The notes under the pieces are model-generated. The model searched no databases. It saw nothing but the letters and a program-made list of their open reading frames with translations, and was not told the origin of the DNA. From NCBI GenBank assembly GCA_002787235.1, contig PCWG01000017.1:1-43815 (forward strand): a stretch of 43,815 bases of DNA, written 5' to 3'. Of this stretch, positions 12,805 to 30,216 are shown piece after piece. Origin of the DNA: Nitrospinae bacterium CG11_big_fil_rev_8_21_14_0_20_45_15. GTDB lineage: Bacteria; Nitrospinota; Nitrospinia; Nitrospinales; VA-1. A program made the translations under genes and the position numbers. Every line of letters starts with the position of its first letter. Position 1 is the first letter of the stretch.

Positions 12805-12878
12805 TGATACTCAACGTTGAAAGGATTAAAAATACAGAGCCACCGGGTCTTCTCGCTGTTTTGCAGAGAAAACGTTTT

Positions 12879-12887
12879 ATTATACCA
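12879..12887 (-). promoter_or_regulatory. Extended -10 promoter for the etf operon
   Basis: On the minus strand TGGTATAAT combines a perfect -10 with the TGn extension, which can replace a good -35 box. No convincing -35 hexamer stands 16-18 bases upstream. Transcription would start near 12872, about 68 bases before etfB. Confidence 0.5.
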
Positions 12888-12951
12888 GTGGCTGATAACG
12901 CACCGTAGCATATTTTTTGAGCAAAGTGCCATCACATGTATCGGTATTGCA

Positions 12952-14556
12952 ATGAAACCATTCATTGAGACAGACGCAAGGCAAAAAGTCGGGTCGCTCT
13001 TTTCAAGCCGCGCCCTGTTCCTGCTCGTCCTTCTGCTCAGTGCCTTCAACCAATTTTCACTGGTGACTGCCGATCCCGATCTTTGGGGTCACGTCAAATT
13101 TGGTCAAGCCGCCTGGCAACAAGGCGCACTGCCCGCAACCGATTCCTATTCCTACACCGCAGAAGGCGCGCGCTGGATCAACCACGAATGGCTGACAGAA
13201 ATTCTGTTCTACCAATTATACGATACTTTCGGCTCAAGAGGTATCCTGCTCTTCAAAATGATTGTCGGATGGAGCCTGATTCTGTTATTGGCCCACAAGG
13301 TTTTTAAAAGCGGACCCGATCCTCATTTCAGCAACCTCGGTCCTTTCTTGATCCTGCTTGTTTTGATTCCCATACTCGCACCGGGATTCATGCCGCGCCC
13401 GCAATTGATGACCTATCTGCTATGGACCTTGCTCCTGCTGGCCCTGCACAGCTATTTTGATAACAAATCGGAAGAAAAAACGAATGCGTTTGCAAGCAAC
13501 GAACCGAACAGGAATCAGCACATCGCACTCGCATCGATCCCGCTGATCTTTCTGGTGTGGATCAATAGCCACGGCGGCGTACTTGCAGGGCTGGCAATTT
13601 TGGGAACCGCCACCTTGTACGAGCTCATCCAGTCCCGCAATTTCCGCTCACCACTTCTTCTCAGTGCCATCCTTTCAGGGCTGACAACCCTCATCAATCC
13701 TTACGGCTACGAGATGGGAAGTTTTTTCATCCACAGCCTGTCGCAGTCGCGCAATATCACCGAATGGAACGGCATCCCCCTGTGGCACCCGCACCTGTGG
13801 CCGTTCAAACTGTACACGTTGCTTTATGTGGTGATGTGGCTGAGCGCAAAAAAGAAATGGGATTGGCAGACCTTCATCATCCTGCCCTCCATTTACTTTG
13901 CCTACAAACACCAGCGTCACGTGCCGCTGGCGGCCATCGCCATGACCCCGTTCATGATGCAACAGGCCAGAAAATGGAACCTGCATTGGAGCGTAAGCAA
14001 GCGCATTCAAAGCCAATTGAACAGCATCTGCCGGCCCGCAATGGCCTGTCTGCTCGTGTTTGCAACATCCCAATTGGGAATCGGATATTTAAAGAACGCC
14101 GACAATCAGTTCAATCTATTGGTCGATCCGGGAGTCTACCCCATTTATGCCGCGCGTTTTATGGACGAGAACGAACTGGCAGGGAATATCTGGAATCCCT
14201 TCGACTGGGGCGAGTACCTCATCTGGAAATTACCAGAAAGCAATATATCCGTTGACGGAAGATTTCGCACGGTGTATCCAGAATCTGTATTGAGGGACAG
14301 TGCCAATTTCGCCGCCGGAAACCAGGGTTGGGCGGAGTTGCTGAAAAAATATCCAGCAACAGATTATGTGTTGACCCGAAAATCCGATGGAACCCATCTG
14401 CGGATGAACTCATTGCCAGGCTGGACCGCCATTTACGAAGACCTCATCTCCGTACTCTACATCAAATCCGACGATCCCGAAAATCCGAAATGGAAACAAC
14501 TCAACAGCCGCAAACTCAAACAAAACCTGCAAACCCCCTCTTATTATTTCCCATGA
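12952..14556 (+). CDS. GT-C-type integral membrane glycosyltransferase-like protein
   Basis: About 534 residues with a short cytoplasmic start, roughly ten hydrophobic segments and a soluble C-terminal part. Just after the first helix comes ADPDLWGHVKFGQ, an acidic loop motif typical of GT-C glycosyltransferases that use lipid-linked sugars, then WINHEWLTE. The C-terminal region contains NPFDWGEYLIWKL and ISVDGRFRTVYPE, seen in this membrane family of unknown specificity. The frame opens earlier at TTG 12817, but ATG 12952 places the first helix near the N-terminus and leaves the divergent etf promoter outside the gene. It is the first gene of the plus-strand module. Function is inferred from fold; the acceptor is unknown. 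Confidence 0.72.
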   Translation: MKPFIETDARQKVGSLFSSRALFLLVLLLSAFNQFSLVTADPDLWGHVKFGQAAWQQGALPATDSYSYTAEGARWINHEWLTEILFYQLYDTFGSRGILLFKMIVGWSLILLLAHKVFKSGPDPHFSNLGPFLILLVLIPILAPGFMPRPQLMTYLLWTLLLLALHSYFDNKSEEKTNAFASNEPNRNQHIALASIPLIFLVWINSHGGVLAGLAILGTATLYELIQSRNFRSPLLLSAILSGLTTLINPYGYEMGSFFIHSLSQSRNITEWNGIPLWHPHLWPFKLYTLLYVVMWLSAKKKWDWQTFIILPSIYFAYKHQRHVPLAAIAMTPFMMQQARKWNLHWSVSKRIQSQLNSICRPAMACLLVFATSQLGIGYLKNADNQFNLLVDPGVYPIYAARFMDENELAGNIWNPFDWGEYLIWKLPESNISVDGRFRTVYPESVLRDSANFAAGNQGWAELLKKYPATDYVLTRKSDGTHLRMNSLPGWTAIYEDLISVLYIKSDDPENPKWKQLNSRKLKQNLQTPSYYFP

Positions 14557-14655
14557 CCGATCACGCAACTATCTAAAAGTTTAAATTCCATTGATTTACG
14601 TGCGCGTGATTAAAATGCTAAAATAAGGCCGGGTAATGCTTCATCCCGCCCGCTG

Positions 14656-14690
14656 AAATGGCTGTGAACTCAAGACAAGCCGTTTTATTC
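14656..14690 (+). terminator. Possible terminator after the GT-C gene
   Basis: AAATGGCT and AGCCGTTT can pair over 8 bp with one G-T wobble and a 14-base loop, running into GTTTTATT. The stem is modest and the loop large, so this is a weak call. If active, it would separate the GT-C gene from the sulfatase-like genes. Confidence 0.3.
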
Positions 14691-14734
14691 CGATAAGTTC
14701 ATGTGACCCCTAATAAACACACCGCGCACTCAAT

Positions 14735-16027
14735 ATGAAATCAAAACAACCGAACGTTCTTCTCATCACCCTCGATACGCTCAGAGCCGATGCGTTGGGC
14801 TGTTACGGATACTCTCAACCTACCAGCCCGTTCATAGATGGGATTGCCGGCGAAGGGGTTCGCTTTGAGAATGCAGTGGCGCAGGCTTCCTGGACCTTGC
14901 CTTCTCTGGCGTCGCTCATGACTTCGCAGTATCCACAAGAAATTGGGATGACGAATTTCAATTCCAAATTCACGGACAATGCCTTGCGAGCGGCTGAAAT
15001 TTATCGCAATAATGGTTATCAAACGGCGGGATTCATCACTTGCGACTTTTTGGCTCAGAATCGCGGTTTTGCGGAGGGATTCGATGTTTACGAGGAACAT
15101 TTGAACAATGCTTTGGCGGAGGACCTCAATCGAAGTGTCTTCAAATGGCTTGCTTCTCATGATCCTGAAATACCGTATTTTTTGTGGATTCATTATTTCG
15201 ATATTCACGCGGATTATGATCCGCCCGCGCCCTTTGACAAATCTTTCGGGCGATCCTTCGACAAGAAAGAATTGGGCACCGCGTCCCATCTCCAGAATTT
15301 ATTGAAAAACAGTCAGCAGATGTCTGAAGAGGATGCCAACGGCGTGCGCCTGCTGTACGATCAGGAAATCCATTATCTGGATTCGCAATTACAGGACTTA
15401 TGGAATCATTTTAAAAAAGAAAATGCTTTACACGATACAGTGACGGTCATCGCTTCAGACCACGGTGAGGAATTTCGCGAGCATGGCGGAATGTTGCACA
15501 CAACCTCTCTGTATGAAGAACTGGTCCATGTTCCGCTCATCATGCATTACCCCGGGCAAATCCCGTCTGGCAAAACGGTGCAGACTCCGGTGCAGAATAT
15601 GGATGTGTTGCCGACTCTTTTAGAACTCTGCCAACTCACCCCGGACTGCAATCTGAAAGGCAAAAGTTTGCTTCCAAGTTTCGAGGCAGAACCGAAGGAT
15701 TCGTTTTGCTTTTCTCATCTGCAAGTGTCTCAGGACGGGGGCAGTTACCTCGACTGGAAGCCTTCACTTTTCAGAACACTTTATATGGCACGCAAAGGTG
15801 CCGATAAGATGATTTACGATGCAAAAAACGATAGCTATGAGTTCTATGACTTGAAGCGGGACCCAGGTGAAACCTGCAATCGTTATGAGGTCAGCCATCC
15901 AAAGTGCATCGAACTGAAAGAAGCCTTGTCGCAATGGATCGAGTCTCAAAAAAAAGAAGATGCGGAATCCGTTGAAATGGAGCGCGAAGTTCTCGAACGA
16001 CTCGAAGCTCTGGGCTACATAGAATAA
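14735..16027 (+). CDS. Sulfatase-fold hydrolase/transferase with Thr nucleophile (copy 1)
   Basis: A 430-residue member of the alkaline phosphatase superfamily (sulfatase family). Metal-site motifs are present: TLDTLRAD (D14), SDHGEEFREHGG and LHTTS. At the position of the formylglycine Cys/Ser of true sulfatases (CxPSR) it has TLPSL, with Thr54. Thr at this place is used by phospho-transferring relatives such as phosphoethanolamine transferases, so sulfate-ester cleavage is doubtful. No signal peptide or membrane helix is seen, so the protein should be cytoplasmic. It ends ERLEALGYIE, a tail shared with the next gene. Likely role: handling a phosphoryl or related ester in the neighbouring glycan or modification pathway; this is inference. 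Confidence 0.82.
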   Translation: MKSKQPNVLLITLDTLRADALGCYGYSQPTSPFIDGIAGEGVRFENAVAQASWTLPSLASLMTSQYPQEIGMTNFNSKFTDNALRAAEIYRNNGYQTAGFITCDFLAQNRGFAEGFDVYEEHLNNALAEDLNRSVFKWLASHDPEIPYFLWIHYFDIHADYDPPAPFDKSFGRSFDKKELGTASHLQNLLKNSQQMSEEDANGVRLLYDQEIHYLDSQLQDLWNHFKKENALHDTVTVIASDHGEEFREHGGMLHTTSLYEELVHVPLIMHYPGQIPSGKTVQTPVQNMDVLPTLLELCQLTPDCNLKGKSLLPSFEAEPKDSFCFSHLQVSQDGGSYLDWKPSLFRTLYMARKGADKMIYDAKNDSYEFYDLKRDPGETCNRYEVSHPKCIELKEALSQWIESQKKEDAESVEMEREVLERLEALGYIE

Positions 16028-16133
16028 AGGAACTTCCATTCTCAATAAACGAAACGAACGATCTGTTAACGAGAGATTGTAACGATTCATGCACAATCCA
16101 CTCTCATTATTCCCAGTCCGTATAGATAAATTT

Positions 16134-17435
16134 ATGAAACCCAACGTCGTATTGATAACCATAGACACTTTGCGAGCCGATCATCTGGGCTGTTATGGCT
16201 ACAACCGCGCGACCAGCCCGAATATAGATGAATTAGCTAAAAATGGAACGGTGTTTGAAAACGCGATTGCGCAGGCTCCGTGGACCATTCCGTCACTCGC
16301 ATCCATGCTCACTTCAAAATTTCCTCCCGAACTGGGGATGATCGAAAAATATTCTACCTTCGACGGACAACACAAGCTCATCTCTTCCTATCTTCAAGAA
16401 AACGGATACGAAACGGCGGGCTTTGTCTCTTGCGTGCTGGATTTTCTGACTCCCAAGCGCGGCTTCGCAGAGGGCTTCGATCATTACATCGGGCTGGAGA
16501 TGATTCGTGCGGATGAGATCAATCAACATGCCTTTGAATGGCTGGACCAGCGAAGCGGGGATCGTCCGCATTTCATGTGGGTGCATTATTGTGATGTGCA
16601 TTCAGACTATGACGCGCCCAAACCCTTCGAGAAATCCTTCACAGATAAAAAAATCGATACGCATCTGGGAAAGACTCGAACGCTGAAAGGCGTATTGAAG
16701 GGACAAACCGTTTTAAGTGCAAGGGAACTGGGAGAAGTCATCACCCTTTACGATCAGGAAATCCATTACACGGATCATCACATCGGACAGCTTCTAGCAA
16801 AATTAAAAGAGACCGGGCAATTTGACGATACTCTCATCATCATAGGGGCCGATCATGGTGAAGAATTTCTTGAGCATGGAGGCGTTTTGCATCAAACTTC
16901 ACTCTACGATGAATTGCTTCGCGCGCCGTTGATATTTCACTATCCCAAACAATTTGCAAAAGACAAAAGGATTGAAACACAGGTGCAGAATATGGACATC
17001 GTGCCAACGCTGATGGAGTTCTGCGGTCTGCCCCTGCCGGAGGATTTCCGGGGAAAGAGTTTGTTGTCTGCCATTTTGGGAGAGCCCAAAAAAGAGGAAG
17101 ATTACAGTTTCGCCCATCTCGATATTTCCAGTTTCAATCTGGGATGCGAAGAATGGAAGGAGTCCATCCTGAGAACGGTTTACATGGCTCGAACCAATGC
17201 AGAAAAATTGATCTACGAACCTCTCAAAGAATCGTTTGAGTATTACAATCTGCTCGAAGATCCCAAAGAACAAAAGAACCTGTTCACGCACGATGCTTTG
17301 AAAAATCGCGCCATCAAAAATGCCTTGTTGAACTGGTACGCACAAATGGAACGACGACCCGATGATTCCCAGAAAATGGATTTGGAACAGGAAACCCTCG
17401 ACCGCCTCGAAGCCCTCGGTTACATCGATGGATAA
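16134..17435 (+). CDS. Sulfatase-fold hydrolase/transferase with Thr nucleophile (copy 2)
   Basis: Paralogue of the preceding gene, 433 residues from ATG 16134. The frame is open from ATG 16089, but 16134 aligns with the start of copy 1 (PNVVLITIDTLRAD against PNVLLITLDTLRAD). Motifs: D11 in TIDTLRAD, Thr51 in WTIPSLAS at the nucleophile position, GADHGEEFLEHGG and a C-terminal DRLEALGYIDG. Like copy 1 it lacks the Cys needed for formylglycine and lacks a signal peptide. The two copies probably arose by tandem duplication and may act on related substrates or as a heterodimer. The next gene starts six bases after its stop, so they are co-transcribed. Confidence 0.82.
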   Translation: MKPNVVLITIDTLRADHLGCYGYNRATSPNIDELAKNGTVFENAIAQAPWTIPSLASMLTSKFPPELGMIEKYSTFDGQHKLISSYLQENGYETAGFVSCVLDFLTPKRGFAEGFDHYIGLEMIRADEINQHAFEWLDQRSGDRPHFMWVHYCDVHSDYDAPKPFEKSFTDKKIDTHLGKTRTLKGVLKGQTVLSARELGEVITLYDQEIHYTDHHIGQLLAKLKETGQFDDTLIIIGADHGEEFLEHGGVLHQTSLYDELLRAPLIFHYPKQFAKDKRIETQVQNMDIVPTLMEFCGLPLPEDFRGKSLLSAILGEPKKEEDYSFAHLDISSFNLGCEEWKESILRTVYMARTNAEKLIYEPLKESFEYYNLLEDPKEQKNLFTHDALKNRAIKNALLNWYAQMERRPDDSQKMDLEQETLDRLEALGYIDG

Positions 17436-17441
17436 TCAATC

Positions 17442-18836
17442 ATGACAATGCGACCTAAAAAACTGATGGTGATCGGACTCGATTGCGCCGCTCCCGAACT
17501 GGTGTTCGACCGCTGGCGCGACCGATTGCCCAATCTAAATCGGCTCATGAGCCAGGGCATTTACGGTCCGCTTGAAAGCTCCATGCCACCCATCACAGTC
17601 CCCGCATGGGCCTGCATGATGAGCGGGAAAGATCCCGGTTATCTCGGAGTGTATGGTTTTCGCAATCGAAAGGACCGCAGTTACGACAATCTCGGCATGG
17701 CCACATCACTGGCATTCAAGGAAGACATGGTTTGGGATCACCTCGGTCGCCGCGGGAAAAAATCAGTCGTTCTGAGTTTTCCACCCAGTTATCCCGTGAA
17801 ACCCATTGTCGGCTGGTCGACCGCCTGCTTCCTCACTCCCAATTCGCAAAGTGCCTACACGCATCCACCCGAACTGAAAGAAGAGCTGGAGAAGGCAACC
17901 GGACCTTACATCCCCGATGTGATGAACTTTCGCACCGAAGACAAGGACAATCTCTTAGAGCAAATCCACGCCATGGCAAAGAACCATTTCGATCAGGCCG
18001 AATACATGGCGAAGGAGAAGGACTGGGATTTTTTCATGATGGTGGAAATGGGAGTCGATCGCATTCATCACGGACTCTGGAAATATTGCAGTCCCAGCCA
18101 TCCTCGATTCGTACCCGGCAATCCTTACGAAAACAGCATTCGTGATTTCTATATCTACTCCGACCAACGCATCGGCAAACTGTTGGAACTCGCTGGACCC
18201 GAAACCGCCGTCCTCGTCGTCTCCGACCACGGTGCGCGCGATATGATCGGGGGAATCTGCATCAATGAATGGCTCATTCAGGAAGGCTACCTCAAACTGA
18301 ACGGACCCGTCGAAGGTTTGCAAAATCCCAGCAAGGTTGGAATCGATTGGGAAAACACAAAAGTCTGGGCCGAAGGCGGCTATTACTCACGCATCTTTTT
18401 AAACGTTCGTGGACGCGAACCGCAAGGCTGTGTCGCGCCGGAAGACTATGAAAATTTACGCACCGAGCTGACGGAGAAACTGACCGCGCTCGGAGACGAA
18501 ACGGGAAATCCGATCGGTACAATCATTTACAAGCCCGAAGACATTTACAAACAGATCAATGGAATCGCGCCCGATCTGCTCGCCCTGTTTGGCGATTTGA
18601 GTTGGCGCGCCGTTGGAACCGTCGGACATGGCTCGGTCCACACACGCGAAAATGATACCGGACCCGATGACGCCAATCACGCACGGGACGGACTCTATAT
18701 CTATAGTTCCCCGCAAGGCGAAGTGCCTGCATCACCGCATCGTGCCGCGCTCTACGACATCGCACCCAGCATCTTGAAATTATACGGCATTGCTTCCCCG
18801 GAAAATGGGGCGGGTAAGACACTCGATTTTTTCTAG
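17442..18836 (+). CDS. Type I phosphodiesterase/nucleotide pyrophosphatase-like protein
   Basis: 464 residues, a third member of the alkaline phosphatase superfamily, closer to the phosphodiesterase/nucleotide pyrophosphatase branch. Signatures: KLMVIGLDCAAPEL (metal Asp14), PPITVPAWACMMSGKDPG with Thr52 as likely nucleophile, VEMGVDRIHHGLWKY and VVSDHGARDM, then NHARDGLYIYS near the C-terminus. No signal peptide. Proteins of this branch are often found with polysaccharide genes and annotated as alkaline phosphatase family or AP endonuclease-like nucleotide hydrolases; true substrates are mostly unknown. The start at 17442 follows the previous stop by six bases; a second Met at codon 3 is an alternative. 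Confidence 0.8.
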   Translation: MTMRPKKLMVIGLDCAAPELVFDRWRDRLPNLNRLMSQGIYGPLESSMPPITVPAWACMMSGKDPGYLGVYGFRNRKDRSYDNLGMATSLAFKEDMVWDHLGRRGKKSVVLSFPPSYPVKPIVGWSTACFLTPNSQSAYTHPPELKEELEKATGPYIPDVMNFRTEDKDNLLEQIHAMAKNHFDQAEYMAKEKDWDFFMMVEMGVDRIHHGLWKYCSPSHPRFVPGNPYENSIRDFYIYSDQRIGKLLELAGPETAVLVVSDHGARDMIGGICINEWLIQEGYLKLNGPVEGLQNPSKVGIDWENTKVWAEGGYYSRIFLNVRGREPQGCVAPEDYENLRTELTEKLTALGDETGNPIGTIIYKPEDIYKQINGIAPDLLALFGDLSWRAVGTVGHGSVHTRENDTGPDDANHARDGLYIYSSPQGEVPASPHRAALYDIAPSILKLYGIASPENGAGKTLDFF

Positions 18837-18858: not shown

Positions 18859-20349
18859 TTGAAAGAAACAATTCTACAGGCCATTCTTACCGACGATCTG
18901 AGCCGGGCCCGCGCACTGCTGGCAGACGATGCAAACGGACTCGAAACCGTGAGGCTCTTGCTCGATCAAGTCAAAGACAAGTCATCCAAACCCCTAGGTA
19001 ACGTTCAAACCCCTTTGCCGCGTGTTGTCAGCACCTCAGTGTCCTATACCTGCGGAGTGGGTTGTAAAATGTGCAACGCGGGATTTGCAGAGAAGACCTA
19101 TCTTTTCGAAGATTACAAATACCTCTCACCCGAGCAATTCGACGCTCTGGAACCCTGGCTGGAAAAATCCAGCCATGTTGTTTTTGTCGGACTCGGAGAA
19201 ACCCTCGATTGCCCACACATCGAAACCTACCTGAACAAAGTACGGGACAAAATCAGCTTCCTCACAACCAGCGGCGTTCCACTCAACCGTGAGAAAGCTG
19301 AAATGCTGATTCGGTCGGGACTGAAATACATCAATTATTCTTTCGACGGCAATTCCACCATGGGGCATGGCGGAGGCTCTACTGCTTACGCAAAGAAATT
19401 TTGGAATAAAATTTCAATGATGGAGCAAATCAAACAAGAGTCCGGCTCATCATTGCCTGAGCAAATGCTCACCATAGCCCTCAACATCGAAAATCTGCAT
19501 GAACTTCACAACATCATCGCAACAGGCGTTCAACACGGGATGAGTAAATTCATGTTGAGTCCGATGACACCGCCCGCAAAAGAATCCATTCCAGACACAC
19601 TTCACGCCGACTACGATCGCTACAAAGAAAAAATCAATCGCGTCATGCAGTACTGGAATGCAAAAGAAAAGTTCGTGCGGTTTTTCGAGTTACCTCAAGC
19701 ATACGACGAAAGCAATCTCTGTCATTTTCTCGATAAGCAGATCGTGTTTGAACTGAACAGGGACCGCCCAAAAGTGTGTTGTGGTCCTCTCGACGCGCCC
19801 TTGCGATTGACTGAGACTCTGCCAGCGGATTACTGGAATGCGTTTCCATTTCGATATTTGCGATATCATGAATTTTACAAACCGACCGCAACTCTCCCAG
19901 CCGCTTGCGAAGCCTGTTGGTTCAAAGCACCCAAGAAATTTGGCGAGTCCCTCCAAACCCGATTTTCAATGCCACCTCAGCAGGAAGAATTTCATCAGCT
20001 TTATCAAGCCACATCCAAGCTAAAGAAACTGGGGCGATATGAAGAAGCACAAACCATCTTCAGACACATTGCAAACAATGCGACCGAATTGTCTCTGAAA
20101 GGCAAGGCCTGGTTCCATATTGGCGAGATGCAATTGTTCGGTAAAAATTATGTCTCGGCACAAACCAGTTTCGAAAATTCCGTACATTACTGTTTCGATC
20201 ACCAACTGGCGTTTGCTTATTTGTACCTGCTCTATGCCATCAACGAAGTGCCTTGCACTGAAAAACCATTGCGTCTCCCGAATCAGGAATTTTTAGATTA
20301 TTTCAAAGAACTACCAAAAGATCGTTCCCTTAAAACGGATGCTTTCTAA
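18859..20349 (+). CDS. Radical SAM protein with C-terminal TPR-like region
   Basis: 496 residues. The radical SAM cluster motif CGVGCKMC (CxxxCxxC, near residue 67) is followed by the SAM-binding VGLGETLDCP region and LTTSGVPLNREKAEML, a typical TIM-barrel strand. Later cysteines (SNLCHF, KVCCGPL, CEACWF) could hold an auxiliary cluster of SPASM type. From about residue 380 helical repeats LGRYEEAQTIFRHI and NYVSAQTSFENSV look like TPRs, a protein-binding part. The start is TTG at 18859 with AAGGA about 8 bases before it; no ATG precedes the first motif. It follows the phosphodiesterase gene by 22 bases. It may modify a peptide, lipid or sugar in this module; the substrate is not known. Confidence 0.85.
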   Translation: MKETILQAILTDDLSRARALLADDANGLETVRLLLDQVKDKSSKPLGNVQTPLPRVVSTSVSYTCGVGCKMCNAGFAEKTYLFEDYKYLSPEQFDALEPWLEKSSHVVFVGLGETLDCPHIETYLNKVRDKISFLTTSGVPLNREKAEMLIRSGLKYINYSFDGNSTMGHGGGSTAYAKKFWNKISMMEQIKQESGSSLPEQMLTIALNIENLHELHNIIATGVQHGMSKFMLSPMTPPAKESIPDTLHADYDRYKEKINRVMQYWNAKEKFVRFFELPQAYDESNLCHFLDKQIVFELNRDRPKVCCGPLDAPLRLTETLPADYWNAFPFRYLRYHEFYKPTATLPAACEACWFKAPKKFGESLQTRFSMPPQQEEFHQLYQATSKLKKLGRYEEAQTIFRHIANNATELSLKGKAWFHIGEMQLFGKNYVSAQTSFENSVHYCFDHQLAFAYLYLLYAINEVPCTEKPLRLPNQEFLDYFKELPKDRSLKTDAF

Positions 20350-20400
20350 GTGGACCCCGCTCCGATAGGCGAGTGCAGAAAAACAAAACTCTACACATTC

Positions 20401-20493
20401 GTCATTGCGGGGAGGCGTCAGCCGACGCGGCAATCCATTTTAAATGAATGGTTATAATGGATCGCCACGTCGCTTTCAGCGACTCGCAATGAC
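20401..20493. repeat. 93-bp inverted-repeat (MITE/REP-like) element
   Basis: The stretch begins GTCATTGCG and ends CGCAATGAC, its exact inverse. Inside, CGACGCGGCAATCCATT pairs with AATGGATCGCCACGTCG at 15 of 17 positions. It can therefore fold into one long imperfect hairpin. Palindromic elements with GTCATTGCG ends are scattered through many bacterial genomes. It sits in the 284-base gap between the radical SAM and NHL genes, and no transposase is present. A further short hairpin (CGGCG-GCT-CGCCG) lies at 20523-20535. Confidence 0.75.
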
Positions 20494-20633
20494 TGCTTAC
20501 CTCTTGATAGTTCAATTGCCACCGGCGGCTCGCCGCTAGCTTGTATTTTTATTTTAACTATGGTCAAATGCGGTGAGACAAAACTGGCACAGAGAACCCA
20601 TAAAACGAAACCCACATCAACCCACAAATCGCC

Positions 20634-23600
20634 TTGAATACCCCGTCTTCCCTGCAATTCGAGCGTAGCCTCCGCGGACAAGACACGTCTTGCCCCCCAT
20701 CCGGACTGGCCTTTACGAGCGACGGAAAAATCATCGTCGCCGACGATTTCAATCACCGCATCCAGATTTATAATCAGGACGGAACACTCTTGCAAAGCTT
20801 TGGAGAAAAAGGTTCCGCGCCCGGTCAGTTTTGTTACCCAAAGGGAATCGCTCTGGATGACGAAGGACAAATCTACGTCGCCGACTGCTGGAATCATCGA
20901 ATTCAGGTTTTTAATGGCGAAGGAAAATTCATTCGCGCCTTTGGTTCCTGCGGCGATGAGCTGGGGGAAATGAATGAGCCTTATCATTTGTTGCTCGATT
21001 CAACGGGCAAATTGGTCGTCGTCGAGCGTTGCAATCACCGCCTGCAGTTTTTCACAAAAGAGGGAGTCTCACTGGGGCGCATGGGAAGCCGGGGAACCGA
21101 GTTGGAGGAGAAACTGGGGAAATTATTTCAAACCCCACCGCATCTTTTGCCACCCCCTTTGTTTGAATTCCCAACCTCGATCGCCGTGGACAGTGTCGGG
21201 AATCATTACATCTCAGACAGCGGCAACCATCGCATCGTAAAATTTGATTCAAAGTGGAACCGACTGGCGAGCTTTGGAGAGTATGGTTCCGGTCCCAGTC
21301 AATTCGAGTATGCCATGTGGCTGAGTATCGGCCCAAACGATCTTTTGTATGTCGCCGATCTGAACAACAACCGAATTCAGATATTATCATCCAGTGGAGT
21401 TTTTCTAGGCGAACAGACCACTTCAGGGAAGTCGAACTCACTCGAAGCACCCTGTTTGACAGGACTCGACACGAACGGACGTTTGTATATCGGGCTCAGT
21501 CTCGACCCCGCAGTCCATTGCTACACACTCTACCCTTCGACAGAAATACAAAGAGCCGAAGCGGCCTTGCAGAAAGAACCAGAGAACCTGCAAATCCTCG
21601 ACTGGAATGCACAGATTTTAGAGAAACAAAACCAGCGTGAGCAGGCACTGAAGCATTATTACAAAATAGCTCAGACCCTGTGGTTGCAGGATGCAGAGAC
21701 AGACATTCAGCAAGCTTCGCTGGACAGTCTGATACGAATGGCAGGTTTGATCCATGACGGAACAGCTCTACCTTCTGCCCGACCCGCGTTGATCAAAGGA
21801 CTTGAAGTCATCATCAAAGCATTGCAGAAATCGCGTCAGAAATTGATGGATCACTTCATAGAATGGGACGAGGTATTCCCAAAGTTCATCCATCAACAAG
21901 TTGCAGAACATCATCTTATTTTGCAGGAACAGGAGGATGAGCAGACCTTCAATCAAAGCTTGTACGATTTGGAAAGTAGGGAACGCAATCTGTTCAGGCA
22001 ATCCCGGATTTTGGCGTACAATTACCGTATCCACGCCATTCAGTGCGCAAATTATCTGTATCGCGCCATCCCCTTATTGGAAGACAGCGAACGAGATGGA
22101 TGCTATCAATCCGTAAAAGAAAACATCCAGACCCTGTGTCAACAAATCAACAGCTACATGGATGCTAAAGAAAAGAATGAAGAAACGCTCTTGCAGGAAT
22201 TCAGCAGTGCCGCCGAGAGTCAGGAAAAATGGGCATCCTTCCTCGAAAAATTAAATTACAGTCGAAGAACATTGATCGTCTCCGCCTACCTGTGCTGGGA
22301 TCTTCAAGCGCAGATCAAGACAATCAAGGCAATCTACCTTCAGCAAAAGCAAGACGAACCCCTGGGAAAATTGATCGACACAATATTTTTGGAATCCCCG
22401 GGCGCAAACCAGATACCGCAATTGCTCATGGGATTTCAAGAAGACTGGAGCCTCGTTGCACAGTTGGGAATAGACCTGAATGATTTGATCGACTGCCGCT
22501 CCCATGAAAAAGTCTCCAGACTCGAACCGGCACCCCTTGAAGTACCGCCCGATTATTTTTGCCCTGTGCCTTACGACACAGAGAATATGAATATCGCAGA
22601 CATTGCCAAATTCCAGATCGACGAATCTTTCCCTTTCAGCATGACAACAAATGGCATTGCCGTGGGCGCGGATCTCTATCCCTTCAGTCTCATTAACGAT
22701 CCCAAAGCCTTTGCACAACGCCTGCAAGAGATGGTCGAGTTACTGCCGCTCTACGAAGAAAAGGACAAGGAATTACAACTTCAGCTGGAAGAACTGATCC
22801 GACAGGAAATTGACCTCAACGATCAACTGGCCCAGGTCAATGCGCTCGATAAAAAGTCACCCATCAGTTTGAGCAATAATATTGAAGTCGTGGCTTTTCA
22901 GGCCAGCCTGTTGCGACGGATGATTTTGACTCTGGAGATAAACCAGTTGAGCAATCTCTACCGGCTGACATTGGGAACCGCCTTGCTCGGTAAGAGCCAG
23001 AACTCAGAACTCGCAGAACCCATCCGTCAAATCCTGAAAACAAAATCGGATCAATTGAAGGAAGAACAGAGCCAACTTTTTGCGGAAAGAAAAGCACTCG
23101 CCAATCAGGAAAGTCAAGCCAACACACGATTAGAAAGTCAAACTTCCGTCGCAAGAGAAGGCCAGGCCCAGGAAATATTGAGCAATCAGAAACAGCGCGC
23201 CTATTTTCTAGCAAGCAAACCCCTGGTAGAGTTGCGTGTCTTTCAGGCTTGCAGAAAACAGAATCTTTACAGAAAACTAGAGACCCTGTTTTCCAAACCG
23301 AAGCCCAAAGTAGAGTTGCAAATTCACTGGAAACGATCCATCGGGCAGGCGGGAGACAACATCGATTGTGTCATGACACCGTTTTCATCCGCTATGTCAA
23401 CCGATGGCAATCTATGGGTACCCGATCAGGAGAATCATTCCGTGGTGAAATTTTCCAGAACCGGAAAATATTTATCGCACTTTGGTGTGTGGGGAGAAAG
23501 TCCCGGGTGCCTGAAAAAACCGACCGATATTCAAATCGATGCAGAGGGTAACCTCATCGTCACCGATGTGAAAATGTGTCGAATTACAAAATTCTCATCC

Positions 23601-24152
23601 GACGGAACATTCCTGAAAATTTACGGACACGAAGAGCCAACAGAAAACCGCCCGGGTCAGGTGAATTCCATTTCACTCGACACCAACGGCAACCTTTGGG
23701 CCGCAGATCGACAAAACAACCGCCTGCTGGTCTATCATCCCGACGGAAGTTTGAAAGATGTGATTCATGCGCAAGGGAAATTGAATTTCCCGGTAGCGGT
23801 TCAATGCATGGAAAATGGAGATTGTATCGTCGGCGATAAATCCAGCCAACGTTTGAAACGATTCAACGCAAAAGGCGAGATGACGCACCATTTTTCCACT
23901 GAGGATTTTTCGTGCGAAGAAATTTACGTGATCGCCTACAGTCCAAAGCACGGCATCTTTGCATCCGACGTATGGAATCATCAGATACTGCATCTGACTG
24001 CCGAGTTGAAATTAATTTCGCGCATCAACCCTGCGGGCAGAAGGGCGGGGAATCTGGGACGAATCGCCGGGATGCTTGTGGATGGAGATGAACTTTTTGT
24101 GTCCGATATTGACAATCAAACGATTCAGGTCTTTGATCTCACGGTGTCCTGA
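20634..24152 (+). CDS. Giant double NHL-propeller protein with helical middle
   Basis: 1172 residues without signal peptide or membrane helix. Residues about 15-300 hold some six NHL repeats, e.g. GKIIVADDFNHRIQIYNQDG and GQIYVADCWNHRIQVFNGEG. A TPR-like helix pair follows (305-350). Residues about 350-900 are helical and rich in Glu, Gln and Leu, with coiled-coil stretches. A second set of about six NHL repeats fills 905-1172, e.g. GNLIVTDVKMCRITKFSSDG and GNLWAADRQNNRLLVYHPDG. NHL propellers usually bind proteins, RNA or peptides. The start is TTG 20634 (frame closed by TAA at 20601-20603), with no clear ribosome site, so the true start is uncertain. The gene ends 28 bases inside the convergent YfhO-type gene. 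Confidence 0.85.
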   Translation: MNTPSSLQFERSLRGQDTSCPPSGLAFTSDGKIIVADDFNHRIQIYNQDGTLLQSFGEKGSAPGQFCYPKGIALDDEGQIYVADCWNHRIQVFNGEGKFIRAFGSCGDELGEMNEPYHLLLDSTGKLVVVERCNHRLQFFTKEGVSLGRMGSRGTELEEKLGKLFQTPPHLLPPPLFEFPTSIAVDSVGNHYISDSGNHRIVKFDSKWNRLASFGEYGSGPSQFEYAMWLSIGPNDLLYVADLNNNRIQILSSSGVFLGEQTTSGKSNSLEAPCLTGLDTNGRLYIGLSLDPAVHCYTLYPSTEIQRAEAALQKEPENLQILDWNAQILEKQNQREQALKHYYKIAQTLWLQDAETDIQQASLDSLIRMAGLIHDGTALPSARPALIKGLEVIIKALQKSRQKLMDHFIEWDEVFPKFIHQQVAEHHLILQEQEDEQTFNQSLYDLESRERNLFRQSRILAYNYRIHAIQCANYLYRAIPLLEDSERDGCYQSVKENIQTLCQQINSYMDAKEKNEETLLQEFSSAAESQEKWASFLEKLNYSRRTLIVSAYLCWDLQAQIKTIKAIYLQQKQDEPLGKLIDTIFLESPGANQIPQLLMGFQEDWSLVAQLGIDLNDLIDCRSHEKVSRLEPAPLEVPPDYFCPVPYDTENMNIADIAKFQIDESFPFSMTTNGIAVGADLYPFSLINDPKAFAQRLQEMVELLPLYEEKDKELQLQLEELIRQEIDLNDQLAQVNALDKKSPISLSNNIEVVAFQASLLRRMILTLEINQLSNLYRLTLGTALLGKSQNSELAEPIRQILKTKSDQLKEEQSQLFAERKALANQESQANTRLESQTSVAREGQAQEILSNQKQRAYFLASKPLVELRVFQACRKQNLYRKLETLFSKPKPKVELQIHWKRSIGQAGDNIDCVMTPFSSAMSTDGNLWVPDQENHSVVKFSRTGKYLSHFGVWGESPGCLKKPTDIQIDAEGNLIVTDVKMCRITKFSSDGTFLKIYGHEEPTENRPGQVNSISLDTNGNLWAADRQNNRLLVYHPDGSLKDVIHAQGKLNFPVAVQCMENGDCIVGDKSSQRLKRFNAKGEMTHHFSTEDFSCEEIYVIAYSPKHGIFASDVWNHQILHLTAELKLISRINPAGRRAGNLGRIAGMLVDGDELFVSDIDNQTIQVFDLTVS

Positions 24153-27133
24153 GAGAACGATTCACCGCGCTCACAATTTTTTTTTATAAAATTAGTATAG
24201 AACGCCCAAGCAGGGATGAGCAAACCCGGAATTGAGATCCAGATAAAAGCCTTCATAAAAAATATAAATAGAACGGGCTCAAATCGAAATTCTACAATAT
24301 GCTCTCCGCTGTTCACATGCACAGCCTTGAAATTGAAGTTCCCACGCATGACCTGGGCCGGTTCGCCATCGATCCAGGCCTTCCAGTGTTTTGAATACGA
24401 ATCCGCGTAATAGAACAATCCCGCCTTGTTGTTATCCATTTTAAAACGAATGTGATTGGGGCCAAAATCCAGCACCTTGGTCGCTTCGTCGCGTCCATAG
24501 GGCGAATGATCGGGAGTCACTTTGTCATTCGAAAGCGTGGAAAAGTTAAAAGCTGAACGTGTGAGTGACGGATCTTCACCCAAACTCAACTCCCTTTCCA
24601 TTTCATCTCGCCAATGTTTTTTGGAAATTACTAAGTTTCCGTCACGCACATAAAGGTGACAGAGTGATTTGCGCGAGTCTGAATCATTGACACGGTCTTT
24701 GCCGTAGAGAATTTCAGCACGCAGGTATTTGTTCGAATAACAAAAAGTTTGCTTCTCATCAATACCCATGATGACCGAATAAATTTTGTTGTGAAAATAA
24801 ACCCGGTTGAGGTTAGAAATAACCAGATAATTATTTGTGATATGAAAAAAACCCAGATGATCCAAATCCCAGGGCCAGTCAGACTTGAAATATTTAGCGA
24901 ATGAGGGCAAAACCAACTCATCCTGATTTTGAGTCTTCTGAAAATTAGACAAACCAAAATTAATTTGGAAGTCATAAAGTTCAGCAATTTTTTTGCCCAA
25001 AAAACCTTCAGGCTTAAAGTCACTCGTGATTTCCGGTCGAACAGGCAACGGAACAATTCCTCTGTCCTCCAGGATCAAAACACGTTGCAAGGTCTTTGCA
25101 GGAATGCTCTTCGCAAGTCGCAAAGCATCCATGGAATCCGTCGCCACAAGGTACTCATCAAAAAATCCGTAACGCTTGCTTGCAACGCCAGCCATCAAAC
25201 CATAATTTTCAGCAGGGACATTACGAATCAAATCAAAAACACGTCGCCCCGTAATGAAATAATCGGTCGCAAATAAAGGTCCCGCAGTCGGTACGCGGTA
25301 CATTGGGGCAAGATATGACCAGAAAGGACCTAGCCGGGGTACTCCGGGAACGCGAACTTCCTGATACTTGAAACTTCGCCGGTGATGAATCTCTGGAGCC
25401 TTGGCATAAACACTCGGTTGAACAATCAAAGGTTCAAAATGCATCACGAAGTCCGTGACCTGGAAGAATGTGAGTCCCCCCAAAAAACCAGCACAAATAA
25501 TTCTTACGCTTCGAAATCTCACTAATAGGAATATAGCGATTGCTAAATAAGTGCTCCACAGGAACCACATGGATTGAAATAAATTTGCCTCAAACCATTC
25601 GATTTTGAGATCTACAGACTTATGACTCGCAGGAGCAATAAAATGCGTCAGGTAATAATAAAGAATTTCAGCATGCACAAAAGCCAATCCCAGAAGCCAC
25701 AAAATAGACGGCGCATATTTTTTCTGATTTGCTTTTAGAAACTGTCCCATCCCGACCATGCAAATAGAAAGCAATCCTGCCCACACGGCATAAAAGAACC
25801 CAGAAAAGGCCAGCAATACCCGTGTGCTCGGATAGCCCGGCAGATATTTAAAGAACGTGTCAAACCAACCTTGCGGACAAACCATTAAAAAAAACAAAGC
25901 CGAAGTTAAGAACAGGAACAGTCTTTTATGAGGAGACCGAGAGCCTTTATAAAATAATAAACAAACAAGCAGAGGAGGAATACCAACGATGAAGTTTATT
26001 TCCCAGAGATCGGCCAGACCCATAAAATAACGAAGATCTGTAAAGGGCACCAATAATCGAATGAGGTAATGCGGAGAGGCATTGAAATGTTCCTTGGGAA
26101 GAAAAAGAGAATCATTTGCAATGTGCACCAGTTGATTGGAAACACCCAATGGTTCTACGCGAAGGTATCCAAAATTTTCTGATTGTTGCGGTAACATTTC
26201 AAAAAGGGAACAAAAAAATGGTGCCGCCAAAACACTCAATAACAGCAAACCAGACAAGCCGTGTTTCCAACCTATAAACTTTAAGATACGGAGGACATAC
26301 GCTTGTTTAAAAAACCAGCCCAACATGAGCAGGATCAATAGGGGAATGATGAATAATTTTATTGATCCAGAAATTTCAAGTGAAACATAGCCGATAATGA
26401 ATAGAAGCAGGATAAAGACCGCGGATTGAACCACTTTCTTTGCAACAAGTATCGGCTGTTCTATTAGAGTGAATTTTCGTAGCGGGCGGAATTGCAGTTG
26501 AACAAAAAAATAAATGGCCAGCAAACAGGTAAAAATAAATAGATAACTTGGAATGAAAAAATTGAAAGACAAGCCCGTCAAATAACAGACTGCAATGAAA
26601 CAAAGCCGACGGTTTGTTTTAGAGATAGAGGGAGAAAATAATTGGAGTAAAAATAAAATAATCCACGGAATATAAAACAACAACAAACTGCCATTCTGGC
26701 GCAGAGAATTGGTTCCGGTAATAATGAAAACCAGACCCGCACTGCATAATGAAGGGATCGGTTTTTTGGAAAGATACAGACAAAGAAAATAAACTCCCCA
26801 ATAATAAACAAGCAGTTTTATAAGATGATAGGTGTGATAGAGATCGAGAGCCGAAAAATCTCCAGAAACCGCAAAGGGGACCATCAACAATACCGTGGGG
26901 TCGAGCAGACCCATTGAATTGAAACTGGTGAAAAAAGTGGTTCCTGAAAAACTGAAAGGGTCCCACAACGGCAAATATCCTTCAGCAAGCGTCAGCAAAA
27001 AATAATTAAAAACGCCATACCACATGATGCTGTCATGAGTCATGACCGCTTCGCCTGTGATAAAGACATCCCCGAAGTAAAAAATGAAGAAAAAAGGAGG
27101 AAGTAATGTAGCCAGATGTGGAAAAATTTTCAT
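24125..27133 (-). CDS. YfhO-type large membrane protein (copy 1)
   Basis: 1002 residues with about a dozen membrane helices in the first 560 residues and a large soluble C-terminal region, then a final helix. The N-terminal loop MTHDSIMWYG and LPLWDPFSFSG resembles GT-C transferases. The C-terminal segment DFGPNHIRFK, then GLFYYADSYSKHWKAWIDGE and GEHIVEFRFEP, matches the YfhO family, membrane glycosyltransferases thought to modify surface polymers such as teichoic acids in Firmicutes. The start ATG overlaps the stop of the upstream paralogue (ATGA, 27130-27133). It is AT-rich relative to its neighbours. The last gene of the sugar operon; a role in transferring or trimming a lipid-linked sugar is inferred. 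Confidence 0.82.
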   Translation of the reverse strand: MKIFPHLATLLPPFFFIFYFGDVFITGEAVMTHDSIMWYGVFNYFLLTLAEGYLPLWDPFSFSGTTFFTSFNSMGLLDPTVLLMVPFAVSGDFSALDLYHTYHLIKLLVYYWGVYFLCLYLSKKPIPSLCSAGLVFIITGTNSLRQNGSLLLFYIPWIILFLLQLFSPSISKTNRRLCFIAVCYLTGLSFNFFIPSYLFIFTCLLAIYFFVQLQFRPLRKFTLIEQPILVAKKVVQSAVFILLLFIIGYVSLEISGSIKLFIIPLLILLMLGWFFKQAYVLRILKFIGWKHGLSGLLLLSVLAAPFFCSLFEMLPQQSENFGYLRVEPLGVSNQLVHIANDSLFLPKEHFNASPHYLIRLLVPFTDLRYFMGLADLWEINFIVGIPPLLVCLLFYKGSRSPHKRLFLFLTSALFFLMVCPQGWFDTFFKYLPGYPSTRVLLAFSGFFYAVWAGLLSICMVGMGQFLKANQKKYAPSILWLLGLAFVHAEILYYYLTHFIAPASHKSVDLKIEWFEANLFQSMWFLWSTYLAIAIFLLVRFRSVRIICAGFLGGLTFFQVTDFVMHFEPLIVQPSVYAKAPEIHHRRSFKYQEVRVPGVPRLGPFWSYLAPMYRVPTAGPLFATDYFITGRRVFDLIRNVPAENYGLMAGVASKRYGFFDEYLVATDSMDALRLAKSIPAKTLQRVLILEDRGIVPLPVRPEITSDFKPEGFLGKKIAELYDFQINFGLSNFQKTQNQDELVLPSFAKYFKSDWPWDLDHLGFFHITNNYLVISNLNRVYFHNKIYSVIMGIDEKQTFCYSNKYLRAEILYGKDRVNDSDSRKSLCHLYVRDGNLVISKKHWRDEMERELSLGEDPSLTRSAFNFSTLSNDKVTPDHSPYGRDEATKVLDFGPNHIRFKMDNNKAGLFYYADSYSKHWKAWIDGEPAQVMRGNFNFKAVHVNSGEHIVEFRFEPVLFIFFMKAFIWISIPGLLIPAWAFYTNFIKKNCERGESFSQDTVRSKT

Positions 27134-30100
27134 GGCTGGTTTCTGTTTGTGGTCAGTGCCGCCCGTACTGGAAAAACCATTCCAGGAATAGAAACGAAAA
27201 TAAATGCTATGAAAAATATTATAAAAAGACTGGGCTCAAAGCGAAATTCAACGATGTGCTCACCCTTATCAACATAGACGGCTTTGAAGTTGAAGTTGGC
27301 CCGCAGAATGGGAGCGTGTTCTCCATCCACCTGTGCCGTCCAGTGTTTGGAATATGTATCTGCGTAATAGAACAATCCCGCCTTGCTGTTATCAATTTTG
27401 AAACGAATATGATTGGGGCCAAAGTCCAGCACCTCGGTCGGTTCGTCACGAACATATGGGGAATGGTCGGGAGTAACTTTCACAGGGTCTAATGCCCATA
27501 GAGTCACTCCAGGATAGGCCGGTGCCAGAGCACTCCTGTTAAAGGTTCCCTTGTTCGTGACATTGGCCCAGTACGTTTCATTGATGACCAATGCGCCGTC
27601 ACGAATCTTCATTGCGCAGTAATAGGGATATTGCTCAGCAAGCGAACGCCGGGGATCCCTGTCCTCAAACAATCCATTTTGCTGAAAAAGTGAAAAGCAA
27701 ATCGAGCCTTTCCCATCCGCATTCAAACTGACAGGCATGAAGGTAGAAGTTCCCAGCACGCGATAATGAGGTGTTAAGTTCAAATGTCGAGTCATGACCA
27801 GAAAATAACCGAGATGAGCTTCATCCCATGGCCAGTTCAACAAAGGATGCTTTTCTGGTATCGCGATGTTTCTGTAAAGTTCATTGCCGTTGGGCGGATG
27901 CATGTTAAGGAAATCGATGTTCGTAAAATCGGTGTACAGAGTGACTAACGAACCTTCCGGGTTTGTTCCAGGCAAATTCACAGGTGGCAATTCCGACAAT
28001 CTCACCGATCTCAGGCCATTAGAGGAATGAACAAACTCTCGTTCCTCCAAAACCAGTGTGTTTTTTAAGATTTCTTTCGGCAGTCCATTCACAAGCATCA
28101 AAGCCGAAACACTGCTTCGCGCCACAAAATATTGGTCAAAGAAACCATAACGTTGCGCACCGACAGCACTCACCAAAGCCAGATTTGACGGCAAAGTGAA
28201 CCGCAAATAATCGTAATTGCGACGGCCTAGAATAAGAGAATCTGCTGTATACAATGGACCCGCGACAGGCAATCTGTACAAAGCCGGCAGATAAGAATAA
28301 AAGGTTCCCATTCGGGGGGCAACAGGAACCCGAATCGGTTTGTATGCAAATTTCTGGTTGTAATGAACGTCACCCTTATCGGAATACAATGCCGGTTGAA
28401 TGGTGAAAAGCTTTAAGGCAACACAAAGTTCTACCACTTGAAAAACTGAAAGAGCGGCCAGAGAACAGGCGCATACAACACGAACACTTCGGAATCGACT
28501 TAAAACTAAAACCAACACCAATCCATAAATACCTGCAAACAACCAGGAATGCGAAAGCAAGTTCTCTTCCAGCCATTGAACATGCTTCAGATACGGCTTG
28601 TCGATCTGGGCGGGAGAAAATGTCGTCAGATAAAAATAGATCGCTTCTATATGAAAAAATCCGATGATGCCCAAACCAAGTGAAAGACGAACCGATCCTT
28701 TTTTAAATGTATCATCATCGAATAGACTCGCAAAACACATCGAGAAAAGTGAAACCCAAATCACATAAAAGAATCCCAGAAAATCAAAAACCACTCGTAT
28801 CGTTCTTAGTGCCGGAAAATATATCAATAGCGAATCGTATAAACTATCGGGACCTGCCACGATCAGTCCCAATGCAACAACTAAAAATAAACAAAGCCCT
28901 TTATAGGGTGAAACAGCGCGGCGGAAGAACAATAGAATGATCAACAAAGGAACCAGACCCAATACCGGGTCCACCTCCTGCATGGCACGTCCCCCCATGA
29001 AATACCGGACATCTGGAAAAGGAAATAAAACTCCCATCAATGAATCCGGCCCAATCCGAAATGCATCATCGGGACGCAAGAGGGCATTGTTTTCCAGATG
29101 CGCCAATTCATTGAAACTCGCATCCGGATTAGCTCGCGCGTAACCAAAATTTTCAGCATCACCCGGAATGACCTGACTGAGGGAATAGAAAAAGGGGGCT
29201 GTCAAAATGGTAAATAAAGCAAAACCCGCCAGAACACTTTTCAATCCAATATCAGAAAATATTTTTCTCACAAGCGGGAGTTTCGCCGTTAGAAAAACAA
29301 TGATGCCCAGCAACATAGGAACCGCAATCAATTTCACCAGAGACGAACCCTGCAAAACAGCGATCCCAATCAGGAAAAACGATCCAACAAAAATAAATGC
29401 CGAAGCCGCCCAGAACCAGGCCGAATTAAAATCATTGCGCGAAAAAAAACGACGACTCTTCCTCACCTGATAAGAAAGGCACAAATATAAAAAAGCCAAA
29501 CTAAGAAATATAAAAATGTAACTCGGAATATAAATATTGAGGGACAAACCTATCAGATAACAGGAAGCGAGAAAGAAAACTTTCCTGTTTGCAGGAGAAG
29601 TACGCGGCGCAACCAATTGCAATAAAAAAAGCAGAATCCACGGACTGTAAACAGCCGAGCTCCAGATGCCATGCTGGCGAAATCCGTTGCCCCCAATCAC
29701 AAACAATAATAAAGTCGCACCCAGCAAAGCCGCCCATTTATTCTTCGCCAGATGCAAGGCCAGTGTGTAGGCTCCCGCATAATAGATGAATAGCAGGGCA
29801 CCATAGTGCCAGTGAAACAGATCGAGCGTAGAAAAATTTCCCAGCCAGATCAGAGGAACACACAGCAGAACCGTAGGGTCAAGCAGGGCTTGCCCGTTGT
29901 ATTCCAGAAAAAAGGGCGTGCCGGAAAAACTGTAGGGGTCCCAAAGTGGCAGTTCCCATTGTGCGAGACAGCGAAGAAAATAATTGAAACTGCCGTACCA
30001 GAAAATGGAATCGTGAGTCATTATTGAAGAACGTGTGATGAACACATCCCAATAAAAACTCAAAAAAAACAGTGCGGGGAAAATTGGTAGAATTGCAGGA

Positions 30101-30216
30101 TGGCAAAACACCCCCGGCCTGAGAAGCCAGGGGGTTACTGAGGTACTAAAACGGGATTGAGAATCCATGGCGCAAATGTATGCATTTGAAAGAGTCGGTC
30201 TTCGCCCATGGAACAT
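27130..30216 (-). CDS. YfhO-type large membrane protein (copy 2)
   Basis: 1028 residues, a tandem paralogue of the downstream gene with the same layout: an N-terminal helix, MTHDSIFWYGSFNYFL and LPLWDPYSFSG, many membrane helices to about residue 590, a soluble region, and the YfhO tail GLFYYADTYSKHWTAQVDGE with GEHIVEFRFEPSLF. The frame starts at ATG 30216, 21 bases after the aminotransferase stop, but no ribosome site is evident and a hairpin covers this ATG; Met17 (30168) is a plausible alternative that leaves a shorter tail before the first helix. A stretch of the C-terminal domain is about 85% identical at DNA level to the other copy, while other parts differ more. Confidence 0.82.
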   Translation of the reverse strand: MFHGRRPTLSNAYICAMDSQSRFSTSVTPWLLRPGVFCHPAILPIFPALFFLSFYWDVFITRSSIMTHDSIFWYGSFNYFLRCLAQWELPLWDPYSFSGTPFFLEYNGQALLDPTVLLCVPLIWLGNFSTLDLFHWHYGALLFIYYAGAYTLALHLAKNKWAALLGATLLLFVIGGNGFRQHGIWSSAVYSPWILLFLLQLVAPRTSPANRKVFFLASCYLIGLSLNIYIPSYIFIFLSLAFLYLCLSYQVRKSRRFFSRNDFNSAWFWAASAFIFVGSFFLIGIAVLQGSSLVKLIAVPMLLGIIVFLTAKLPLVRKIFSDIGLKSVLAGFALFTILTAPFFYSLSQVIPGDAENFGYARANPDASFNELAHLENNALLRPDDAFRIGPDSLMGVLFPFPDVRYFMGGRAMQEVDPVLGLVPLLIILLFFRRAVSPYKGLCLFLVVALGLIVAGPDSLYDSLLIYFPALRTIRVVFDFLGFFYVIWVSLFSMCFASLFDDDTFKKGSVRLSLGLGIIGFFHIEAIYFYLTTFSPAQIDKPYLKHVQWLEENLLSHSWLFAGIYGLVLVLVLSRFRSVRVVCACSLAALSVFQVVELCVALKLFTIQPALYSDKGDVHYNQKFAYKPIRVPVAPRMGTFYSYLPALYRLPVAGPLYTADSLILGRRNYDYLRFTLPSNLALVSAVGAQRYGFFDQYFVARSSVSALMLVNGLPKEILKNTLVLEEREFVHSSNGLRSVRLSELPPVNLPGTNPEGSLVTLYTDFTNIDFLNMHPPNGNELYRNIAIPEKHPLLNWPWDEAHLGYFLVMTRHLNLTPHYRVLGTSTFMPVSLNADGKGSICFSLFQQNGLFEDRDPRRSLAEQYPYYCAMKIRDGALVINETYWANVTNKGTFNRSALAPAYPGVTLWALDPVKVTPDHSPYVRDEPTEVLDFGPNHIRFKIDNSKAGLFYYADTYSKHWTAQVDGEHAPILRANFNFKAVYVDKGEHIVEFRFEPSLFIIFFIAFIFVSIPGMVFPVRAALTTNRNQP

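Follow-up and report, generated by a model that had tools for sequence, protein, structure and literature searches.

Architecture of a protein with two NHL propellers

The Nitrospinota include main nitrite oxidisers of marine waters. The stretch analysed here, which we call the window, is a contig of 43,815 nucleotides from Nitrospinae bacterium CG11_big_fil_rev_8_21_14_0_20_45_15 (PCWG01000017.1); it has a GC content of 47% and is one contig (C22) of a 3.37-Mb genome (G000). A gene on its forward strand encodes a 1172-residue protein in which two NHL propellers flank a long helical middle. The protein belongs to a new family, built from known parts, that is inherited together with a predicted membrane protein (hereafter the GT-C-like/TPR protein), and we tentatively propose that it serves as a scaffold in the assembly of cell-surface glycans. 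The gene and its parts are as follows:

20634..24152, + strand: gene of the NHL - helical - NHL protein; TTG start, 1172 amino acids, no clear Shine-Dalgarno sequence by eye
20652..21530, + strand: N-terminal NHL propeller, residues 7-299; motifs DDFNHR, ADCWNHR, VERCNHR, DSGNHR, DLNNNR
21543..21755, + strand: first helices, in part TPR-like, residues 304-374
21771..23291, + strand: long-helix middle without a known family, residues 380-886
22848..22967, + strand: best-conserved stretch of the middle, residues 739-778, DK..PI ... FQ..L.RRM...L.IN...NL.RL
23325..24137, + strand: C-terminal NHL propeller, more diverged, residues 898-1168

An AlphaFold2 model of the whole protein, built from an eight-sequence alignment (predicted local distance difference test, pLDDT, 84.7; predicted template-modelling score, pTM, 0.79), places one propeller at ca. 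7-299, helices at 304-886 (ca. 580 residues) and another propeller at ca. 898-1168. The N-terminal propeller carries a short helical insert (residues 155-164), and a small beta piece lies inside the helical middle (residues 668-683); when the middle was modelled alone, nearly identical elements were obtained (pLDDT 85.4, pTM 0.83). The Pfam NHL family (PF01436) matches with an E value of 1.1e-49 (164.5 bits, cut-off 20), which places the protein, with its two modelled propellers, among the NHL proteins. An initial annotation, made from the sequence alone, had assigned about six NHL repeats to each end, and the Pfam match and the model bear out a six-bladed NHL propeller there; the limits it gave, residues 15-300 and 905-1172, are close to those modelled. 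It had also described the helical middle as TPR-like. The middle is helical, but it resembles TPRs only at its start (ca. residues 319-356), and beyond this the model has mostly helices of 40-50 residues.

The TPR-like start was seen when a family profile of the middle was compared with designed TPR proteins (CTPR), which match at E 2e-4 over profile positions 2-38, or ca. 37 of the 591 positions. Pfam TPR_2 matches the middle of two of 32 members, at best with E 0.033, and the window's own middle has no Pfam family at E 0.1; NCBIfam, searched with the whole protein, gave only matches below cut-off. Across the middles of the 32 members, 33 Pfam families match weakly (among the 25 listed, the best E is 0.0018 and each involves at most four members), and we take these matches to be noise. 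The initial annotation had named an enzyme domain in the middle as an observation that would contradict it; no such match appeared in Pfam or NCBIfam, and on these searches we set the idea of such a domain aside. The search for a solved fold of the middle gave only generic helical arrays: Foldseek returned 586 matches at E ≤ 10 and none at E ≤ 0.001, and the best VIA-align match (Z 12.5, 6.0 Å, 274 of 604 residues) is at a level that, according to the tool, is common for such arrays.

The two-propeller protein is probably cytoplasmic, judging from its sequence, because there is no usable upstream start and no N-terminal hydrophobic stretch. Upstream of the TTG start the frame extends, stop to stop, by only 10 codons (NETHINPQIA); none of these is ATG, GTG or TTG, so another usual start cannot add a signal peptide. 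The claim of the initial annotation that there is no signal peptide thus holds, and a signal peptide gained through a different start, the other observation it had named beforehand as contradicting it, is ruled out. Across 36 family members no hydrophobic stretch occurs at the N-terminus (15-residue means of at most 1.03). In the window protein the strongest 19-residue Kyte-Doolittle mean is 1.05, and a transmembrane segment is therefore not indicated.

ScyF (NF035926), itself a bacterial NHL protein, is the best NCBIfam match, with 248 bits against a cut-off of 350; this model has 376 positions and therefore covers about one propeller, and ScyF is by its family name a PEP-CTERM protein, whereas the window protein lacks an export signal. 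The C-terminal propeller is overlaid by the solved six-bladed NHL-type propeller Pizza6 (6f0t; Z 29.7, 2.3 Å, 250 residues) and by the sensor propeller of PknD (1rwl; Z 28.9, 2.4 Å, 249 residues). The PknD propeller is extracellular according to its entry title, and the window protein has no kinase match in Pfam.

Distribution and unequal conservation of the family

When the window's middle was used as a single-sequence query, 41 of the 77 Nitrospinota genomes matched, each with a single copy, which in genome G034 is divided between two frames; the open frames span 1064-1273 amino acids except in G034, G053 and G061. Thus the middle, when searched alone as the initial annotation had suggested, defines a family of its own. 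A 32-sequence profile of the middle added weaker matches in four Nitrospinota genomes: G043, with a fragment, and G003, G071 and G076, which belong to other families of the class. In the G071 protein, on the same contig as locus L006, both ends give matches of the N-propeller type, whereas the middle matches only weakly; G003 encodes a 1220-residue relative of this protein. Aligned homologs are collinear nearly end to end, except L006 and L007.

Outside the phylum, a profile search of 387 genomes of 305 genera (24 of them from the phylum) produced a sole match, in G085, with E 5e-4 and over the first 60 profile positions only, which are the TPR-like part. The profile had no match at E 1e-5 in a further 391 genomes and none in 72,556 plasmids or 50,697 phage records. 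A pattern scan for close relatives among genome contigs gave eight loci, all from Nitrospinota, of which L008 matches over just part of the N propeller. The family thus appears, provisionally, to be limited to Nitrospinota, since sampling outside the phylum is thin.

The two ends of the protein are not equal clamps, because conservation is much stronger in the N propeller than in the C propeller. Among 32 members, pairwise identity averages 61% in the N propeller, 43% in the C propeller and 30% in the middle. Of the 111 positions with at least 97% invariance among 34 members, 73 fall within residues 1-300. The initial annotation had seen a symmetrical design that would bridge two partners at a fixed distance. 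Of this, the two propellers, the helical middle and the missing export signal stand, but the symmetry does not, as the constraint on the two ends is very different; a fixed-distance bridge between two candidate partners is possible.

Some members vary at their ends or in their frames. An extra N-terminal stretch precedes the first propeller in L049, L052, L053, L058, L060, L063 and L073; these lengthened members come from the order's other families (f2-f4, except L054), and the sequence PPSG stands at position 82-108 in six of them, compared with 20 in the window protein (in L053 the motif match fell elsewhere). In G034 (L080, 7361-11112) the family gene lies in two overlapping frames, reflecting sequencing error or decay.

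Genomic setting and co-inheritance with a predicted membrane protein

The GT-C-like/TPR protein has ca. 800 residues, is predicted to be a membrane protein and contains a conserved DDD motif close to its N-terminus as well as a TPR region; some lineages have it fused to a GT2 domain. A search of the 77 genomes with its N-terminal 820 residues at a threshold of 1e-30 (thresholds for the partner and control searches differ, 1e-30, 1e-60 or 1e-100, and were our choice) gave matches in 44. Five of these (G002, G003, G071, G072 and G076), which lie outside the order and show 23-29% identity over ca. 650 residues, were set aside as distant. On this basis 38 genomes have both the NHL family and the GT-C-like/TPR protein, 35 have neither and four are discordant. 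The NHL protein occurs alone in G006, G054 and G061, which are at most 83% complete, and the GT-C-like/TPR protein occurs alone in G045, which is 82% complete and whose contig stops 333 bases past a B12 radical-SAM gene with no NHL start visible there. Among the 32 genomes that are at least 90% complete, 18 have both and 14 neither.

The corresponding Jaccard indices are 0.90 for the 77 genomes and 1.00 for the 32, or 0.81 and 0.90 when the five weak matches are counted; the controls, the window's TonB receptor and a YfhO-like protein, gave 0.33 (0.58 among the 32) and 0.07 (0.11), respectively. When the five weak matches and the distant NHL relatives are both counted in the 77 genomes, 41 have both, four and three are discordant and 29 have neither.

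Absence of the family leaves several kinds of locus. Of 11 family-negative genomes checked, five keep a spermidine-synthase-like gene that flanks the family gene elsewhere and six lack it. In G016 and G018 this gene is directly adjacent to a prfB-like gene, leaving an empty site, and in G008 it adjoins unrelated genes. A 182-codon C-terminal remnant of the NHL gene is found in G026.

In many Nitrospinales the family gene closes a variable segment, which the prfB-like gene often bounds at its other end. Downstream lies the spermidine-synthase-like gene, oppositely oriented, in 25 of 36 loci, with a pckA-like gene beyond it (all three names are our reading of the sequences). In 29 of the 36 loci the gene closest upstream is on the same strand and belongs to one of the glycosyltransferase, radical-SAM or methyltransferase clusters, which were named from Pfam matches of one or a few members each: radical-SAM with TPR (8 loci), GT2 or GT-C-like/TPR (8), methyltransferase (6), B12 radical-SAM (4), FtsJ-like methyltransferase (2) and radical-SAM/SPASM (1). 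The remaining upstream genes are same-strand and unclustered in three loci, one of them (L067) a methyltransferase by Pfam, and opposite-strand in four. In the window this position is taken by:

18859..20349, + strand: radical-SAM protein, separated from the NHL gene by 284 bases

Relatives of this radical-SAM protein are nearest upstream in 10 of the 36 loci (8 on the same strand, 2 on the opposite strand). We considered it (cluster 11) as an obligate partner and rejected it: the NHL family is present in 14 of its 15 genomes, an association that is unspecific because the TonB control gives the same 14 of 15. The B12 radical-SAM protein, with 11 of 12 genomes, was rejected as a specific partner on the same grounds.

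A possible scaffold for surface-glycan assembly

Our favoured reading, to which we give a probability of roughly 45%, is that the two-propeller protein is a cytoplasmic scaffold or accessory protein of a Nitrospinota system for cell-surface glycan assembly. It draws on three computed results, namely the domain structure with two propellers and a long helical spacer, the missing export signal and the co-inheritance, together with the single copy and the changing tailoring neighbours; the strongest constraint, which falls on the N propeller, also favours it. In this view the conserved N propeller would attach, on the inner side of the membrane, to the GT-C-like/TPR protein or a glycosyltransferase. 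The helical middle would hold or space the partners, while the C propeller, which is more variable, would bring in those tailoring enzymes of the same cluster that vary between genomes (radical SAM, methyltransferase and further GT2). A more specific version, in which the protein is a dedicated Nitrospinota hub whose conserved N propeller anchors to the undescribed GT-C-like/TPR protein and whose more quickly evolving C propeller plugs in exchangeable surface-glycan tailoring enzymes, strikes us as rather unlikely.

If correct, the scaffold reading would give bacterial NHL propellers an uncommon cytoplasmic role. More generally, a large single-copy protein that is conserved over its full length, belongs to no known family and is co-inherited with one predicted membrane protein brings an overlooked system within reach of testing. 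A literature search gave no paper linking Nitrospinae with radical-SAM proteins and glycosyltransferases and, within the excerpts it returned, none linking Nitrospina or Nitrospinota with NHL proteins, one mentioning both without a link. According to an excerpt of one study, NHL proteins were rarely detected among its bacterial genomes (PMC12426252).

Several points weigh against the scaffold reading. The physical contact, the polarity (which partners the N and C propellers have) and the product are things we infer. Same-strand upstream gaps range from 55 to 1087 bases and give no clear sign of an operon. The N-terminal part of the GT-C-like/TPR protein has no family match, and the labels 'membrane' and 'GT-C-like' derive from the DDD motif and from two stretches in L046 that exceed a hydrophobicity threshold. 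Counting the five weak matches changes the tally to 38 genomes with both, three with the NHL protein only, six with the membrane protein only and 30 with neither, and, among the 32 more complete genomes, to 18 with both, 0 and 2 discordant and 12 with neither; Fisher p-values overstate the evidence because the genomes are related. Taken singly, the tailoring genes associate with the family no better than the TonB control. Five of 36 members have an internal 19-residue mean above 1.6 (maximum 2.03) in or near the helical middle, so that membrane contact of the middle is possible in those five. Finally, part of the co-occurrence comes from linkage: G026, as compared with G024, has one deletion of ca. 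6.6 kb that spans the membrane gene, a GT2 gene and most of the NHL gene, so that linkage did cause joint loss in at least one case.

That deletion also favours the view that the gene and the cluster are inherited and lost jointly as neighbours, without any shared function, as does the finding that many genomes hold both genes in one segment between the prfB-like and pckA-like genes. Both are kept even where they are distant, however: at least 74 kb apart on separate contigs in the window's genome, ca. 53 kb apart in G009 and ca. 11-14 kb apart in G010, G011 and G012, and we consider linkage alone improbable. We judge it similarly improbable that the NHL protein is a substrate, which the enzymes encoded nearby would glycosylate or modify in some other way and which is perhaps exported without a signal peptide. 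Its gene stands at the end of a modification cluster and is co-inherited with the predicted membrane component of that cluster, as a substrate gene might be, but the lack of an N-terminal hydrophobic stretch in all 36 members speaks against it, and the invariant residues of the N propeller are, in our reading, largely the usual blade positions.

Both other alternatives, which we hold to be very improbable, arise from likeness to known propellers. The protein might be a post-transcriptional regulator, its N propeller binding RNA in the manner of TRIM71/Lin41 and Brat: the nearest solved propellers, by sequence and by fold, are those of Thin, TRIM71, TRIM2 and Brat, some of them solved with RNA, and the six-bladed Thin propeller (6xg7) overlays the N propeller with Z 37.3 and 2.1 Å over 276 residues. 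Yet NHL sequences are generically alike, and while both ends of the window protein are NHL propellers like those of TRIM71, Thin and Brat, it differs in having two of them in one chain around a helical middle. The first propeller stands at the very N-terminus rather than behind a RING, B-box and coiled coil as in TRIM-NHL proteins, and Pfam found neither RING nor B-box at E 0.1. The RNA-binding face of NHL propellers is basic, whereas all three parts of this protein are acidic on average (net charge among 32 members -12.4 in the N propeller, from -20 to -3, -17.7 in the middle and -7.8 in the C propeller, from -12 to +2), which argues against RNA binding in the manner of TRIM-NHL proteins. Alternatively, the protein might be a propeller enzyme, a lactonase or lyase whose substrate is a glycan precursor, given that SMP-30/gluconolactonase (PF08450; 44.9 bits, cut-off 26.3) and a phytase-like family (31.6 bits, cut-off 27.6) score above their Pfam cut-offs and that a lactonase propeller (8djf) is among the fold matches (Z 27.6). 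Cross-matches to enzyme families are common among propellers, though, and we do not file the protein under SMP-30/gluconolactonase because its NHL score is far higher; virginiamycin B lyase models stay below cut-off (PF24684, 36 of 50 bits; NF000096, 22.4 of 600 bits).

Other features of the locus

Upstream of the radical-SAM gene, Pfam identifies a phosphodiesterase-like protein and two sulfatase-like proteins; with a 579-residue protein that has no clear Pfam family and that we guess to be in the membrane, these occupy 12817-18836. G046 (L114) has the same upstream order up to the end of its contig, with two added small open reading frames before the sulfatases. By eye, the first 140 residues of the sulfatase-like proteins show no obvious C-x-P-x-R, which we take to be the sulfatase motif. 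Downstream, 24125-30216 holds two tandem proteins of ca. 1000 residues whose similarity to YfhO is just under the Pfam cut-off; the first has matches at E ≤ 1e-30 in three of 77 genomes, all of the window's own genus, and so gives no sign of a link with the family.

Just upstream of the NHL gene lies an intergenic palindrome (20401-20493) with the ends GTCATTGCG and CGCAATGAC; the RNA fold predicted for 20396-20510 has an energy of ca. -46 kcal/mol. It is a single copy in the window and the compared loci, the rest of the genome not having been searched.

On another contig of the window's genome (C17; L113, 476-8977), ca. 15 kb from the GT-C-like/TPR gene, is an array of short proteins, several of them mutually related and presumably DUF1566-like. 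The array adjoins a stand-alone NHL propeller of 334 residues without an evident signal peptide.

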